Source: Sphingobacterium detergens
GTDB lineage: Bacteria > Bacteroidota > Bacteroidia > Sphingobacteriales > Sphingobacteriaceae
DNA: 64,000 nt
Assembly: GCF_003610355.1 (NCBI RefSeq)
Contig: NZ_RAPY01000001.1
Location: 1,426,001-1,490,000, forward strand
Direction: 5' to 3'
Shown here: positions 4,477 through 60,456 of the stretch, in pieces
How the letters are laid out: every line of letters begins with the position of its first letter
Position numbering within the stretch: the stretch's first letter is position 1
The notes under the pieces: generated by a model
What the model was told of the DNA's origin: nothing
The model's input: only the letters and a program-made list of their open reading frames with translations
Databases searched by the model: none
Made by a program: the position numbers and the translations under genes

Positions 4477-4617
4477 ACTTTTCTTCATACCAACTTCCAC
4501 CGTTGCAGCAATTCGCTTCGGGTTGTCTTCGGGATTTTATCGGGAAAAATAGCCAGAGAATCCGATGAAATCCCGATGAACTCCCGATGAAATGCAGAAG
4601 TTGGTATGAAGTTGGTC
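4477..4617. repeat. Inverted array of 11-bp units (element 1)
   Basis: This lies between two convergent gene ends. The right arm reads in exact 11-bp steps: cgatgaaatcc (4563-4573), cgatgaactcc (4574-4584), cgatgaaatgc (4585-4595), agaagttggta (4596-4606), tgaagttggtc (4607-4617). The left arm, read as reverse complement in the same step, gives cgataaaatcc (4532-4542), cgaagacaacc (4521-4531), cgaagcgaatt (4510-4520), then a weaker unit, ggaagttggta (4488-4498) and tgaagaaaagt (4477-4487). The outermost arms contain a perfect 15-bp inverted repeat (4483-4497 with 4597-4611). About 20 bp separate the arms. The whole could form an imperfect hairpin. It shares its period and CGANGAA-type core with the element at 57656-57840. 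Confidence 0.8.
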
Positions 4618-4657
4618 AGAAGATTTCAGCTCGTCAAAAGCCGATAACTTAATCATT

Positions 4658-7532: not shown

Positions 7533-7536
7533 TCTC

Positions 7537-7617
7537 GACTTTAGGGGTGTCTGCATATGCGGGCTGAGATTTTACCCTTATAACCTGATCCAGATCATAC
7601 TGGCGTAGGGAAAAGTA
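7537..7617 (+). promoter_or_regulatory. TPP riboswitch (THI element)
   Basis: The conserved core is present in order: ggggtg (7544-7549), gctgaga (7563-7569), aacctgatc (7582-7590), atactggcgtaggga (7597-7611). The closing stem P1 can form between acttt (7538-7542) and aaagt (7612-7616). This class of RNA binds thiamin pyrophosphate and turns down thiamin biosynthesis genes. It lies about 70 bp upstream of thiS. No T-tract terminator follows it, so control at translation initiation is more likely than transcription termination. Confidence 0.95.
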
Positions 7618-7654
7618 AGCTATCTTCCAGATACATTACTGTATCTTGTTGTGG

Positions 7655-56221: not shown

Positions 56222-57535
56222 TTAATTTGCATTAAAAGGCAGCGGATCCTTTAAAAAGAAAGTATATTCCATCATTTGTCCGTCTCTTTCGATCTTAAAT
56301 CGAATTTCTTTACCTTCCTCTGATTTGAAAAGCGTATGAATAGTTTCCAAAGAATAGGAAGAAGCCGAACGTCCATTGATTTTCAACACCTTATCATCCG
56401 GTTTTAATCCGGCAATTGCTGCTGGAGAACCTGCCCGAACAGTTGCAATTTTATACATATTTTTCAGTACAAAGCGATACTGCAAACTGTTGTCCATACG
56501 GATCTCTGTCCCACCATCTTTCTTTAAATAAACAGGCACCTCCTCTTTCTCATATTTTATCCCATCATGTATAATTTCGAGACCACTCATGTTTAAGTAA
56601 TAGAATTTATCAAAGTTTCTATTTTTTTGGAGATAAACGACATTATTGGGATAATCGAAAATAACCTTAAACCTACGTAGAAGTTCGTTTCCGACAGAAC
56701 CTATTCGTTCATTTACAAAAGTTGCATGTTGTGTAGAGCTCAATTCTGGATAGGCTACCAAAGGATAATTCATCTTAAATGGTCCCAGCTCCAAGGATTT
56801 GATCCGATTTCTTTTCCCATAGATTTCGCCATTGAATCCCTGACCAATGTAGTCATCAATAAAAGGAGGTTTGATTGCAAAATCATTTAATTTGGACGGA
56901 ATAAGCATCAACGCATCACTATTACCCATATCAATCAATACGCGGCCTTCAATGTCTGCGGAATCCTGATTAAAAGCAACGGAGATATACGGTCTGCTAT
57001 TTAAAATGTCGAGCGGGAGACGTTGCATCTTTGCGAGTCCTTTGGGATACTCTCCCTTTTGGTAAAGAGTAATCCGGTGTTTCAAAAAATCCATCTCAAC
57101 AACGTGATCACTAAAAAAACGGCTCCCCATGATGCCATTTACCTCCACCCCGATTCGGGTAGAAATATCAATATGTGCATTTTTAAGAATATAAATGGGC
57201 TGATCCAGATCCTCATACACATTAGCAACGCTAACCTTATTATTGACAGACAGATAACCATCCAAACCCTCATCCTTGCCTAAGCCCTGAAACTTATTAA
57301 CGAAGACTGCACTATCAATCGATTTCAGCGTTTCTCCGAATATCATGGTCTCCTTGACCCCTGTATCCAATAAGAAGTTCATCGTATATCCATTCACCTG
57401 AACAGGAATAATAACCAGATTATGAACAAATAGAAACGGGAATCTAACTTTCTTTTTTTCTTTCAAAACAAAGCGGTCTTGCCCCAAGGCAAAAAAGGAA
57501 CAGAATAAGGCAAAAGATAAAAATACTGCTTTCAT
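56222..57535 (-). CDS. Retropepsin-like aspartyl protease with PDZ domain
   Basis: This exported protein of 437 residues has a signal peptide ending near ALGQ. There are two retropepsin-type halves: the first active-site motif is LLDTG (D57-T-G59), and the second is LIDMG (~200) with Met in place of the usual Thr/Ser. A C-terminal PDZ domain (~355-425) contains AGSPAAIAGLKPDDKVLKING. Similar two-domain proteins are common in Bacteroidota; their role is not settled. The gene appears monocistronic. Confidence 0.88.
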   Translation of the reverse strand: MKAVFLSFALFCSFFALGQDRFVLKEKKKVRFPFLFVHNLVIIPVQVNGYTMNFLLDTGVKETMIFGETLKSIDSAVFVNKFQGLGKDEGLDGYLSVNNKVSVANVYEDLDQPIYILKNAHIDISTRIGVEVNGIMGSRFFSDHVVEMDFLKHRITLYQKGEYPKGLAKMQRLPLDILNSRPYISVAFNQDSADIEGRVLIDMGNSDALMLIPSKLNDFAIKPPFIDDYIGQGFNGEIYGKRNRIKSLELGPFKMNYPLVAYPELSSTQHATFVNERIGSVGNELLRRFKVIFDYPNNVVYLQKNRNFDKFYYLNMSGLEIIHDGIKYEKEEVPVYLKKDGGTEIRMDNSLQYRFVLKNMYKIATVRAGSPAAIAGLKPDDKVLKINGRSASSYSLETIHTLFKSEEGKEIRFKIERDGQMMEYTFFLKDPLPFNAN

Positions 57536-57655
57536 CCAAGTTTATATTTGGTATTTCCAATTTAAACAAGAATTCTCATAATAAAAAAGGTTTATACAAA
57601 AAAAGACTATATATCTTTTCATCAACTTTACGAGCATTTATTCGGACATTATTAT

Positions 57656-57840
57656 CGTTTTGCTTGGGACAACATACCACTTGCTTTGCCATTTGTTTGC
57701 CCTTTGAAGGCTATTTTATTACCATTATACCAAAGAAACAGCAAAGAAATAGCAAACAAACAGCAAAGCAGTCCCAAGGAAGGTCCCTAGAAAGTACGAA
57801 GAAGTCTCGAAGAACTAGCCTAGAAACGGCAAAGAAAAAA
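57656..57840. repeat. Inverted array of 11-bp units (element 2)
   Basis: Ten consecutive 11-bp units run without a gap from 57731 to 57840: caaagaaacag, caaagaaatag, caaacaaacag, caaagcagtcc, caaggaaggtc, cctagaaagta, cgaagaagtct, cgaagaactag, cctagaaacgg, caaagaaaaaa. Position 1 (C) and position 7 (A) are invariant, position 5 is G in nine of ten, and the last four bases vary. A shorter set in the opposite orientation and same 11-bp step lies at 57656-57710 (for example the reverse complements caaacaaatgg and caaagcaagtg). cttgggac (57663-57670) pairs with gtcccaag (57771-57778). The element ends 4 bp before the propeller-gene stop, so the gene end is embedded in its edge. The rest of 57536-57655 holds nothing I can support. 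Confidence 0.85.
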
Positions 57841-57844
57841 GCCC

Positions 57845-58921
57845 CTATTTCCTTTTAAAGTTTGTGATGGTTTTTCCATTGTAAGCAGACACACCATCTA
57901 GTGAACCAAACCAAATATTGCGTTTATCATCTTCTAAAATCCCGAAGATCATTGGTTTATTTACGATTTCTGTTACCGTTGGATACCCATTCGACAAGGA
58001 TTTCTCTGCATAACGGGAAAGCACCCAGCTTTTCTTATCAGCACTTTCTGAGCTGGTCAAAATATTGCCTTCTTTGTCTTCGTAGATATATCCAACAAAA
58101 TTCCTGGTAAAATTGGTAAATGTACGGCCATCATAACGCCAAAGACCATCATAACCTCCTAGCCAAATATTATCTTTTCTATCTTTGATTATTGACCTGA
58201 CATTTGCAAATGGTTTTCCGTCTTTATTGGTTACAACCGTAAATGTCTTTCCATCATAAATGCAAGCATATCCCCTGGTACCGAACCAAAGTTTTCCTGA
58301 CTTATCTTCAACAATAGCATTCACATCATTGTGCATGGGATGATTTTCCGAAAGCTGCTGTTGGTAAATGGTCACGTGGACAGAATCACTGTTAATCGCA
58401 ACAGCCCCTTCCTTCATTTTAAAATTTTGAAAAGATTTCCCATCGTAGCGGCTTACCCCATTATCGGAGCCAAACCAAATAGAACCGAACCTATCTTCAT
58501 AAAGAGTTGTTACCCGGTCACTGGCAAGACCATCCTTGCTTGTAAAATTCCGAAAGGATTTTCCATCGTAATAATAGACACCCGAACCGATAGAAGCAAA
58601 CCAAAAGTTTCCCTTTTTATCTTCTAACACAGAAAAAAAACGTGCTGAACTCACTTGATTGGTTACATTGGTAAACGATTTTCCATCATATCGAAATACC
58701 CCCTCCCATGAGGCCATCCAGATATTCCCTTTTCGATCTTGTTTGATTGTACGTACGATACTGTTTGGGCCATGCAGCGAAGAAGCGGTATTAGTTCCAG
58801 ATGGAATACGGTCTACTTCAGACTGCATATTGCCTATTTGTTCAGCTGCTTTTTTGTGCTGTGCGCTACAATTACTAGCGGTAAATACAGAGAGTAACGT
58901 ATATATGAATATGTACTTCAT
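57845..58921 (-). CDS. Two-component-regulator-propeller-type periplasmic protein
   Basis: This exported protein of 358 residues has a signal peptide (~1-20). Seven repeats follow, most with the pattern ED+GNIWFGS..GVxRYDGKSFxNFT; they match the 'two-component regulator propeller' repeat and together would close one seven-bladed propeller. One repeat is degenerate. In Bacteroidota such propellers usually form the sensor half of hybrid two-component systems; here the propeller stands alone. It is divergent from a membrane-spanning winged-helix regulator, a possible partner. Its stop abuts an 11-bp repeat array. Confidence 0.9.
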   Translation of the reverse strand: MKYIFIYTLLSVFTASNCSAQHKKAAEQIGNMQSEVDRIPSGTNTASSLHGPNSIVRTIKQDRKGNIWMASWEGVFRYDGKSFTNVTNQVSSARFFSVLEDKKGNFWFASIGSGVYYYDGKSFRNFTSKDGLASDRVTTLYEDRFGSIWFGSDNGVSRYDGKSFQNFKMKEGAVAINSDSVHVTIYQQQLSENHPMHNDVNAIVEDKSGKLWFGTRGYACIYDGKTFTVVTNKDGKPFANVRSIIKDRKDNIWLGGYDGLWRYDGRTFTNFTRNFVGYIYEDKEGNILTSSESADKKSWVLSRYAEKSLSNGYPTVTEIVNKPMIFGILEDDKRNIWFGSLDGVSAYNGKTITNFKRK

Positions 58922-59181: not shown

Positions 59182-59311
59182 CCCATATCAAAGTTGATAC
59201 AGCGAAATTACTTTGGTATTTTTCAGTCCGGGGAATTTGGATTGTAAATAAAAATGTAAACTTTGTAAATAAATCGTAAATAGCATGTTATATAAGGAAA
59301 AACTGTTCAAA

Positions 59312-60175
59312 ATGAGAAGTAGATATGTATATGGGTCCTTGCTGCTCCTGTCTATTTGTATCGTCTTCGGTTCTTTTAGCATCAACAATACCGACGACTT
59401 TGATTTCGCAAAAAGGGAAGTTTTGCTTCGCAGAATCGGACACGAATTACTCTTACAGACTGGTGACAGTACGTCAAGGGTGCTCCCTATAGAAAAGGTT
59501 GCGGAAAACGAATATCAGATCAAGTTTGAGCATGACTTCAGTTTTCAGCCGGATTCTTTGGTGAATACAACACGACGTCTATTAGCAAAAGACCCCTTCG
59601 CTGTCGATTATATTGTTCGTGTTGTAAAATGCGGCAATTCCAATGTGGCCTACAGCTATTCCATATCCAAAAATAAAAAAGACGATATTATCGCCTGTAT
59701 AGGAAGAGTACAACCTAGTGCCTGTTACATGATCAATATTAAATTCAAACCGACAGGAATTCATACAACTAAAAACAGCTATCTGCTGGGCAGTCTCCCG
59801 ATCTTAGCTATTGTTGGATTTATTTTTTTGAGATCTGTAAAATCGCGAAAAAACACAGCTAAAGATCAGTCGACCACCCTGTTCACCCTGGGATCAGTGT
59901 TGTTCAACGCAAAAGAACGACAACTGATTATCCATGACAGAACGATAGACCTGACCGGAACCGAAGCCCGTCTGCTACTCATTTTTGCATCCTCACCAAA
60001 CGAAACTATCATGAGAAGCCGCTTGCAAAAAGAGATCTGGGAAGATGAAGGTGTTATTGTAGGGCGCAGTCTGGATATGTTTATATCAAAACTGAGAAAA
60101 AAATTGGAAATTGATCCGAAGATCAATATTGTTGTTATACGTGGGAAAGGCTATAAGCTTGAAATTAGCGCTTAA
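59312..60175 (+). CDS. Membrane-spanning winged-helix (OmpR-type) regulator
   Basis: This one-component regulator has about 287 residues from the preferred start MRSRYVYGS (59312); a frame extension to 59285 adds nine residues. An N-terminal helix (~5-22) leads to a predicted periplasmic domain of ~130 residues, a second helix (~157-174, LLGSLPILAIVGFIFL) and a cytoplasmic OmpR/PhoB winged-helix domain (LTGTEARLLLIFASSPNE; VGRSLDMFISKLRKKLE; RGKGYKLE). This is a ToxR/CadC-like idea with two membrane helices, and DNA binding by a membrane-tethered domain. No receiver domain is present. The divergent propeller protein could be the periplasmic ligand or partner; this is inferred from location. 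Confidence 0.88.
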   Translation: MRSRYVYGSLLLLSICIVFGSFSINNTDDFDFAKREVLLRRIGHELLLQTGDSTSRVLPIEKVAENEYQIKFEHDFSFQPDSLVNTTRRLLAKDPFAVDYIVRVVKCGNSNVAYSYSISKNKKDDIIACIGRVQPSACYMINIKFKPTGIHTTKNSYLLGSLPILAIVGFIFLRSVKSRKNTAKDQSTTLFTLGSVLFNAKERQLIIHDRTIDLTGTEARLLLIFASSPNETIMRSRLQKEIWEDEGVIVGRSLDMFISKLRKKLEIDPKINIVVIRGKGYKLEISA

Positions 60176-60376: not shown

Positions 60377-60456
60377 TACCCGGAGCCGGAGTCGAACCGG
60401 CACGGTTTCCCACTGGTGTTTGAGACCAGCGCGTCTACCAATTCCGCCATCCGGGC
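60377..60456 (-). tRNA. tRNA-Leu (CAA anticodon)
   Basis: The minus strand folds as a cloverleaf: acceptor arm gcccgga pairing with tccgggt (one G-U), D-arm containing aattggtaga, anticodon stem ctggt/accag around loop ctcaaac (anticodon CAA), an 11-nt extra arm (tgggaaaccgt) and T-arm gccgg-ttcgact-ccggc. The extra arm and the anticodon identify leucine, reading UUG codons. The CCA end is not encoded. A terminator follows directly. Confidence 0.95.

Follow-up and report, generated by a model that had tools for sequence, protein, structure and literature searches.

Dispersed inverted arrays of 11-bp units in intergenic DNA of Sphingobacterium detergens as candidate rows of protein sites

The stretch of DNA analysed here (the window) comprised 64,000 nucleotides of the Sphingobacterium detergens genome (contig NZ_RAPY01000001.1, positions 1,426,001 to 1,490,000). 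It was observed that an inverted array of 11-bp units lay in the gap between a protease gene and a propeller gene, and a second array of another family was present elsewhere in the window. The features were as follows.

56222..57535, minus strand: aspartyl protease gene with a PDZ domain, 5' end towards the array; used as the locus anchor (profile match)
57613..57839, plus strand: span aligned by one or other dispersed copy of the same genome (blastn)
57656..57710, minus strand: left arm of reverse-oriented units, three of five similar to right-arm units (inverted repeats 57682-57716/57736-57770)
57711..57730, no strand: centre separating the arms (CTATTTTATTACCATTATAC), similar across the own-genome copies (alignment of 7 copies)
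57731..57840, plus strand: right arm of ten contiguous 11-mers, consensus CNAAGAANNNN (direct reading, block score and lag scans; TRF for the first part)
57845..58921, minus strand: two-component regulator propeller gene (Reg_prop), 3' end towards the array (profile match)
4483..4623, no strand: second inverted array with an 11-bp period, built of CCGATGAAATC units from another family, with CTTCATACCAACTTC/GAAGTTGGTATGAAG as outer arms (lag scan, inverted repeats and fold)

The right arm was split directly into its units, which in order were CAAAGAAACAG, CAAAGAAATAG, CAAACAAACAG, CAAAGCAGTCC, CAAGGAAGGTC, CCTAGAAAGTA, CGAAGAAGTCT, CGAAGAACTAG, CCTAGAAACGG and CAAAGAAAAAA. C at position 1 and A at position 7 were found in all ten units, A4, G5 and A6 in nine each, and the tail positions agreed in 4-6 of 10. 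This split confirmed an earlier reading of the sequence alone (the sequence-only reading), which had described ten contiguous 11-mers with C1 and A7 fixed and G5 in nine. The 10 x 11 block scored 9.8, far beyond the mean best (3.4) and the maximum (5.4) of 300 dinucleotide-shuffled versions of this intergenic region, indicating that the array was not a product of chance. In the real DNA, period 11 had a printed score of 0.94, whereas none of periods 8-10 and 12-14 exceeded 0.53; after rescaling to ten units, period 11 gave about 1.03 bits per column and the other periods at most 0.42. Among lags 4-30 across the whole window, only lag 11 and its harmonic 22 attained 28/44 matches. The 11-mers were contiguous and spacers were absent, so the array was no CRISPR, in agreement with the sequence-only reading. 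It was also intergenic and close to the end of the propeller gene, with 4 bases between the array and the end of the open reading frame at 57845.

The left arm was looser than the sequence-only reading had claimed. Three of its five units, read as reverse complements, started with CAA and resembled those of the right arm (CAAACAAATGG, CAAAGCAAGTG and CAAGCAAAACG), so the reverse-oriented set stood in part; the other two units of 57656-57710 did not fit, and the exact CNNNGAA core occurred in none of the five. The two arms paired as imperfect stems, that is, as imperfect inverted repeats. The Rfam search over the window matched only a TPP riboswitch (7533-7628, RF00059, 72.3 bits) and a tRNA, and the element itself had no family at the gathering score. 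With E up to 1, the element returned just two miRNA families, far below the cut-off.

A blastn search of the same genome revealed six more copies, at C1:622k, C1:1200k, C1:1350k, C1:2676k, C4:128k and C4:503k, with 72-87% identity across the matched stretch; the objection that the element might stand alone in its host thus did not apply. The span 57613..57839 was composed of query stretches within 14-240 of 57600-57900, and no single copy covered all of it. In the alignment, the copies at C1:622k, C1:1350k, C4:128k and C4:503k matched the window copy throughout (left arm, centre and right array), the copy at C1:2676k followed it weakly on the left, and that at C1:1200k only from the centre onward. 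The right arrays of these copies held 5 to 16 units, all in an 11-bp step. Six further non-coding copies within one genome are a feature shared with MITE-like (BrickBuilt-like) elements, and dispersal of the family must have happened. One candidate agent was a RAYT (Y1 transposase) mobilising REPIN/BIME-like hairpins, given that the elements are inverted, intergenic and dispersed; however, Y1_Tnp (PF01797) had no match in this genome. The profile was found in 23 of the 93 Sphingobacterium genomes, and among the 21 with pattern-found arrays only in G042 (below the cut-off) and G072. At the sensitivity of the profile, the RAYT/REPIN explanation was refuted for this genome, and its probability overall is practically nil.

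Arrays of other families were also present. The array at 4483-4623 lay between convergent genes and was predicted to fold strongly as DNA (z -5.97). At C4:431.7k (L039:3180-3520), a long inverted array built from TCGAAGNNNNN units represented a third family of modules in this genome, and an array resembling it was present at C1:1200k in the relative G065. A sample of 464 kb, made up of the window and 400 kb of stretches at even spacing, contained five places above the lag-11 threshold; two were convincing, both in the window, and the others were AT-rich or T-rich. At least nine arrays are known in the genome, including those at C4:431.7k and at 4483-4623 of the window.

The genes neighbouring the copies were mostly unrelated to one another. 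Reg_prop genes adjoined two of the seven own copies (window 57845-58921 and L040:723-1748), opposite in orientation to the array, and tRNA genes lay 1-3 kb from two of the seven (window 60377-60456 and L041:3660-3740). The latter was a tRNA-Leu(CAA), likewise found at the orthologous site in G073. Domains of the Trans_reg_C (PhoB) type bind 11-bp direct repeats, and a protein with such a C-terminal domain was encoded near the array (window 59285-60175); the domain was absent from all seven scanned neighbours of other copies. Among ten neighbouring proteins, no regulators of PhoB/ArcA-type operators and no plasmid partition genes were recognised.

The distribution of the arrays was analysed with a strict pattern (CNWWGAANNNN x4, one mismatch), and the reversed pattern was used as a control. 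Arrays were found in at least 21 of 93 Sphingobacterium genomes, including this one, and the reversed control gave one match overall. The pattern had no match in the other 72 genomes, some of which carry arrays by lag-11: G045, G056 and G069 were negative, yet had a significant lag-11 array at the window's site. In the family sample, 12 of 301 genomes matched (two outside the genus), and in the phylum sample 2 of 296, one of them this genome. In a scan of named genomes, the matches listed came from assemblies of Bacteroidales and from scattered other sources, and some of them fell within open frames or ordinary tandem repeats. The genome of S. siyangense CGMCC 1.6855 also carries an array. In the Bacteroidales assembly RUG737 (those of loci L102-L162 on ONYC01 contigs), there were many copies of an inverted TCGAAGAACNA array, several of them at contig ends, as if the repeats had broken the assembly. 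The plasmid and phage collections gave no array match (E 1e-5, low-complexity filter on). The spacing was examined using three cores with variable gaps of 2-6 in 116 of the matches listed, taken in listing order up to genome G064. Both gaps were 4 (period 11) in 42 of these 116 matches, with ambiguous strings credited to period 11 first, and the other 24 gap pairs averaged 3 matches each. Period 10 occurred in none, period 12 in 7 and period 9 in 10; the latter two are codon multiples.

At the window's site, 80 genomes of the genus had a match to the protease, and the 700 bp upstream were measured against 100 shuffles for the 30 best loci. Of the 21 loci with at least 77% identity, 16 had a lag-11 signal above all 100 shuffles, two had a 21-bp array, and three (G076, G086 and G074) had no array; none of the nine more distant protease loci gave a lag-11 signal. 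In G036, the stretch was shifted, the protease match being in two pieces. The kind of unit differed between species. CAAAGAA units were found in G000, G073, G065, G045, G061 and G056, CACTGAA units without a visible CAAAGAA array in G091 and G060, and both kinds in G075, G078, G079, G050 and G087; G055, whose sequence was read in part, had CACTGAA units. In L084 and L086 (G050 and G079), a compact palindromic family of TTCAGTGCTTG/CACTGAACAAG 11-mers was observed beside the CAAAGAA array. The same family occurred at the window locus in G091, G060 and G055, and in G056 at another site. Upstream of the protease gene in G047 and G007 (L256 and L258), about 16 units near TGATCAAATGCTGAGGACGTT followed a strict 21-bp period, which is suggestive, at this one locus, of two helical turns where others have 11-bp arrays.

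Arrays of different kinds were also observed at other sites. At C1:1200k, six of the 16 genomes measured had a significant array and ten did not. The array was of the CAAAGAA kind in G000, G073, G061, G045 and G047, and of the CGAAG kind in G065, whose flanks were 95-98% identical to those of G000. At C1:2676k, G056 had a CACTGAA-type array where G000 had CAAAGAA, with the same left flank. A third array kind in G056 at C1:1200k was dropped, since lag 11 only equalled the best of 100 shuffles; an apparent 1-kb perfect repeat in L091 proved to be masked sequence (a stretch of N) and was discarded, and L080 contained a weak candidate array (2207-2280) that was left out. Sites without an array exist (G007, G079 and others at C1:1200k), with flanks too divergent to define ends or a duplication, and at C1:1350k and C1:2676k the flanks were rearranged in relatives, so the origin of the array could not be read there. 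At C1:622k, G061, G045 and G007 retained, by eye, apparent remnants of the last units. Because 72 of 93 genus genomes were pattern-negative and arrays were absent at single sites in relatives, an essential function of the array is unlikely.

The unit numbers of orthologous arrays were compared between species. In nine comparisons that share genomes, 13 of 15 gaps within arrays were multiples of 11 (lengths included 99, 77, 22 and 11), compared with 1 of 32 gaps elsewhere. When the borders were set differently, a second count gave multiples of 11 in 4 of 5 in-array gaps versus 6 of 15. Off-phase indels showed a borderline depletion (1 seen versus 4.7 expected, P = 0.05), in a count where free end gaps hid the 99-base difference of the first pair. 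The expectation that unit number varies was thus borne out between species, mostly by steps of 11, and variation by whole units between relatives is that of a minisatellite or VNTR. What the sequence-only reading had set aside, a simple decayed tandem repeat, thus applied in part, in that whole units come and go as in a minisatellite.

Substitutions were counted in seven pairs after 22 bases beside long gaps had been dropped. There were 12 changes among 366 bases at core positions 3-7, 31 among 299 in the tails and 122 among 1881 in other intergenic DNA (core versus tail, p = 0.0002; core versus flank, 0.016; tail versus flank, 0.02). Before dropping, the rates were 0.037, 0.124 and 0.081, respectively. 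The counts in this analysis were drawn from related genomes and are not independent, and one of the seven pairs, C4:503k, was without core conservation (8/65 in the core, 6/56 in the tail). The fixed core and variable tail described in the sequence-only reading were thus also seen as a difference in rate of change between orthologous arrays. The contrast could stem from copying between units or from the alignment of non-orthologous units.

These results bear on the explanation that the element is a neutral or selfish MITE-like dispersed repeat carrying an 11-bp minisatellite, whose phase arose from slippage of whole units and which is functionless for the cell. This explanation is possible, if somewhat doubtful. 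The copies are dispersed and alignable, whole units are gained and lost, arrays are present in some species and absent from others at single sites, and the array as a whole diverges at nearly the same rate as the flanking DNA (0.077 versus 0.081). An analogue is also available in BrickBuilt, described as dispersed and variable in repeat number (PMC4596501). Slippage alone would account for the step and for change by whole units; the contrast between core and tail and the polarity of the arms would be explained less well by it. The core was slower and the tail faster than the flank in the seven pooled pairs (C4:503k being contrary), the same inverted 11-bp design recurred with different sequences, some at one site, and one arm polarity was preferred. 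In addition, no transposase was tied to the family in the Y1_Tnp search, and no target duplication was definable.

The polarity of the arms was examined in 133 arrays. With arrays oriented to read CNNNGAA, a clear complementary arm (z at least 4) was present in 52 cases; it lay on the 5' side in 50 of them and on the 3' side in 2. Among Sphingobacterium arrays, it was 5' in 26 of 57 and 3' in one, and among the others 5' in 24 of 76 and 3' in one, or eleven to one by genome, many rows coming from a single genome (RUG737) or from the same element in overlapping loci. The window's own array was below z 4 and thus counted among those without a clear arm. A stricter test, which required exact cores, favoured a 5' arm by 12 to 1 outside the genus set and gave 0 to 1 in genus loci, where the single 3' arm was a neighbouring array of another kind. 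As for gene context, 28 Sphingobacterium arrays, orthologues included, were placed: tandem gaps held 19 of them, convergent gaps 6 and a divergent gap one; one more lay at the edge of a contig, and one was called coding. Gaps of at least 200 bp in the genome sample were tandem in 55 cases, convergent in 13 and divergent in 29. Because arrays were scarce between divergent genes, a simple promoter operator appears less likely.

The sequence-only reading had also offered a long hairpin built from code-like modules. The window copy folded better than dinucleotide shuffles, with z of -3.2 and -3.5 on the two strands, and just 0 and 2 of 60 shuffled unit orders were as low as the real one. Across 14 regions, however, unit order mattered (at most 3/60 on at least one strand, the real order in the lowest 5% of unit-shuffled folds) in only three, namely the window copy, C1:1350k and the C1:1200k copy of G047. 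In the other 11, the fold was not tied to unit order; at C4:503k, the shuffled order was equal or better in 58 and 60 of 60. In two genomes, G065 and G061, shuffling the letters of the window-locus copy also had little effect, and the wrong block may have been shuffled there. What is conserved is thus generally not an exact RNA hairpin, and the ordered-module hairpin was rejected as a general rule. The notion of code-like modules fared no better, as module sequence differed among species at one site.

A broader RNA-level explanation would have the element transcribed from a neighbouring gene, with the array acting as a long hairpin or as a region of Rho-type termination or processing, in which the pyrimidine-rich arm is read first from either side. 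The preferred polarity does put TTCNNNG units first on both strands, and the mostly tandem and convergent gaps mean that one or both neighbouring genes have their 3' end towards the array; the fold of the window copy points the same way. However, the dependence of the fold on unit order in no more than 3 of 14 regions, with the opposite at C4:503k, argues against it. By eye, separate terminator-like hairpins stood beside several arrays, and no T-run followed the window stem. We consider this RNA-level explanation quite improbable.

We tentatively read the element as a dispersed intergenic inverted minisatellite whose phased cores may well be protein sites on one face of the DNA. The element takes the form 5'-(NNNNTTCNNNG)n - centre - (CNNNGAANNNN)m-3' and is non-coding, with 11-bp units. 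In the arrangement that we chiefly infer, each 7-bp core would be the putative site of a DNA-binding protein and the 4-bp tail a spacer. The 11-bp step would hold the sites on one helix face, where a head-to-tail oligomer might coat the arm as at CarH operators, but over a longer length and in two opposed arms. Candidate roles of such a bound array include insulation of neighbouring transcription units, local chromosome folding and titration of the protein. Of the two ideas in the sequence-only reading, one-face protein binding appears the better. A row of proteins would explain the strict step, the conserved core with its fast tail and the opposed arms of one polarity, as in CarH operators. 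Different sequences at one site would also fit if the protein reads little beyond GAA and the phase, or if different proteins serve. A-tract curvature was dropped as a general rule, the G065 array at C1:1200k consisting of CGAAG units without A-tracts.

A wider generalisation would be an element class of Bacteroidota set by its architecture, in which 11-bp units are arranged in two opposed arms of TTC-first polarity, and not by its sequence. Unrelated modules would replace one another between close species at preferred intergenic sites, and the coat would be a lineage-specific protein filament reading the helical phase and a minimal GAA core; we regard this generalisation as unlikely. If the cores are protein sites, the arrays would serve as extended natural operators or as platforms on the chromosome, varying in unit number and sequence among living species, and the binder could be fished for directly. 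If they are neutral, they would offer a natural record of how bacterial 11-bp minisatellites arise, keep their phase and are replaced. Either way, different arrays at one site in two close species, between flanks 95-98% identical, are unusual and open to experimental test.

Several known systems share part of this design. PhoB/ArcA-type operators and ParR centromeres are direct repeats of about 11 bp that place protein on one face, and they differ from the present arrays in being tied to defined regulators or plasmid partition genes. In the open-licence PMC papers searched, no description of such arrays was found. According to the account in PMC4060949, tandem repeats of 6-11 bp are over-represented in the intergenic DNA of some archaea. 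TAACTGA heptamer arrays, reported from Beggiatoaceae, Cyanobacteria and some Bacteroidetes, are similar in being intergenic direct repeats at many loci with a binder not known, and differ, as outlined there, in their 7-bp units, in lying mostly just upstream of start codons and in being direct rather than inverted (PMC4679880). CarH binds an 11-bp direct-repeat operator on one DNA face, and its operators, like the present arrays, are described as direct repeats of 11 bp set in tandem, in which a core is fixed and other positions are free (PMC9304148). The present arrays thus share the 11-bp phase, conserved core and free tail of such operators. The CarH operators described have 3-5 repeats in a single orientation at promoters, with the core nnnnTnnACAn (PMC9304148), whereas the arrays here have 5-19 units, the core CNAAGAANNNN and opposed arms, and a divergent gap held just one of the 26 arrays classified. 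The BrickBuilt MITE of Porphyromonas gingivalis, likened here by its description, is also a dispersed intergenic element of Bacteroidota (19 copies there, 7 here), with tandem units without spacers, conserved and variable sites in each unit, and a unit number that differs at conserved sites, there between strains (PMC4596501). It has 23-nt units in one tandem block with a leader and a tail, for which terminal repeats like those of IS5-family elements and target duplications are reported; an 11-bp phase and two opposed arms, as seen here, are not among the features in that description (PMC4596501). The closest known systems are thus BrickBuilt in form and CarH-type 11-bp operators in mechanism, and the present family can be placed as a further variant beside BrickBuilt among intergenic elements that carry a minisatellite.
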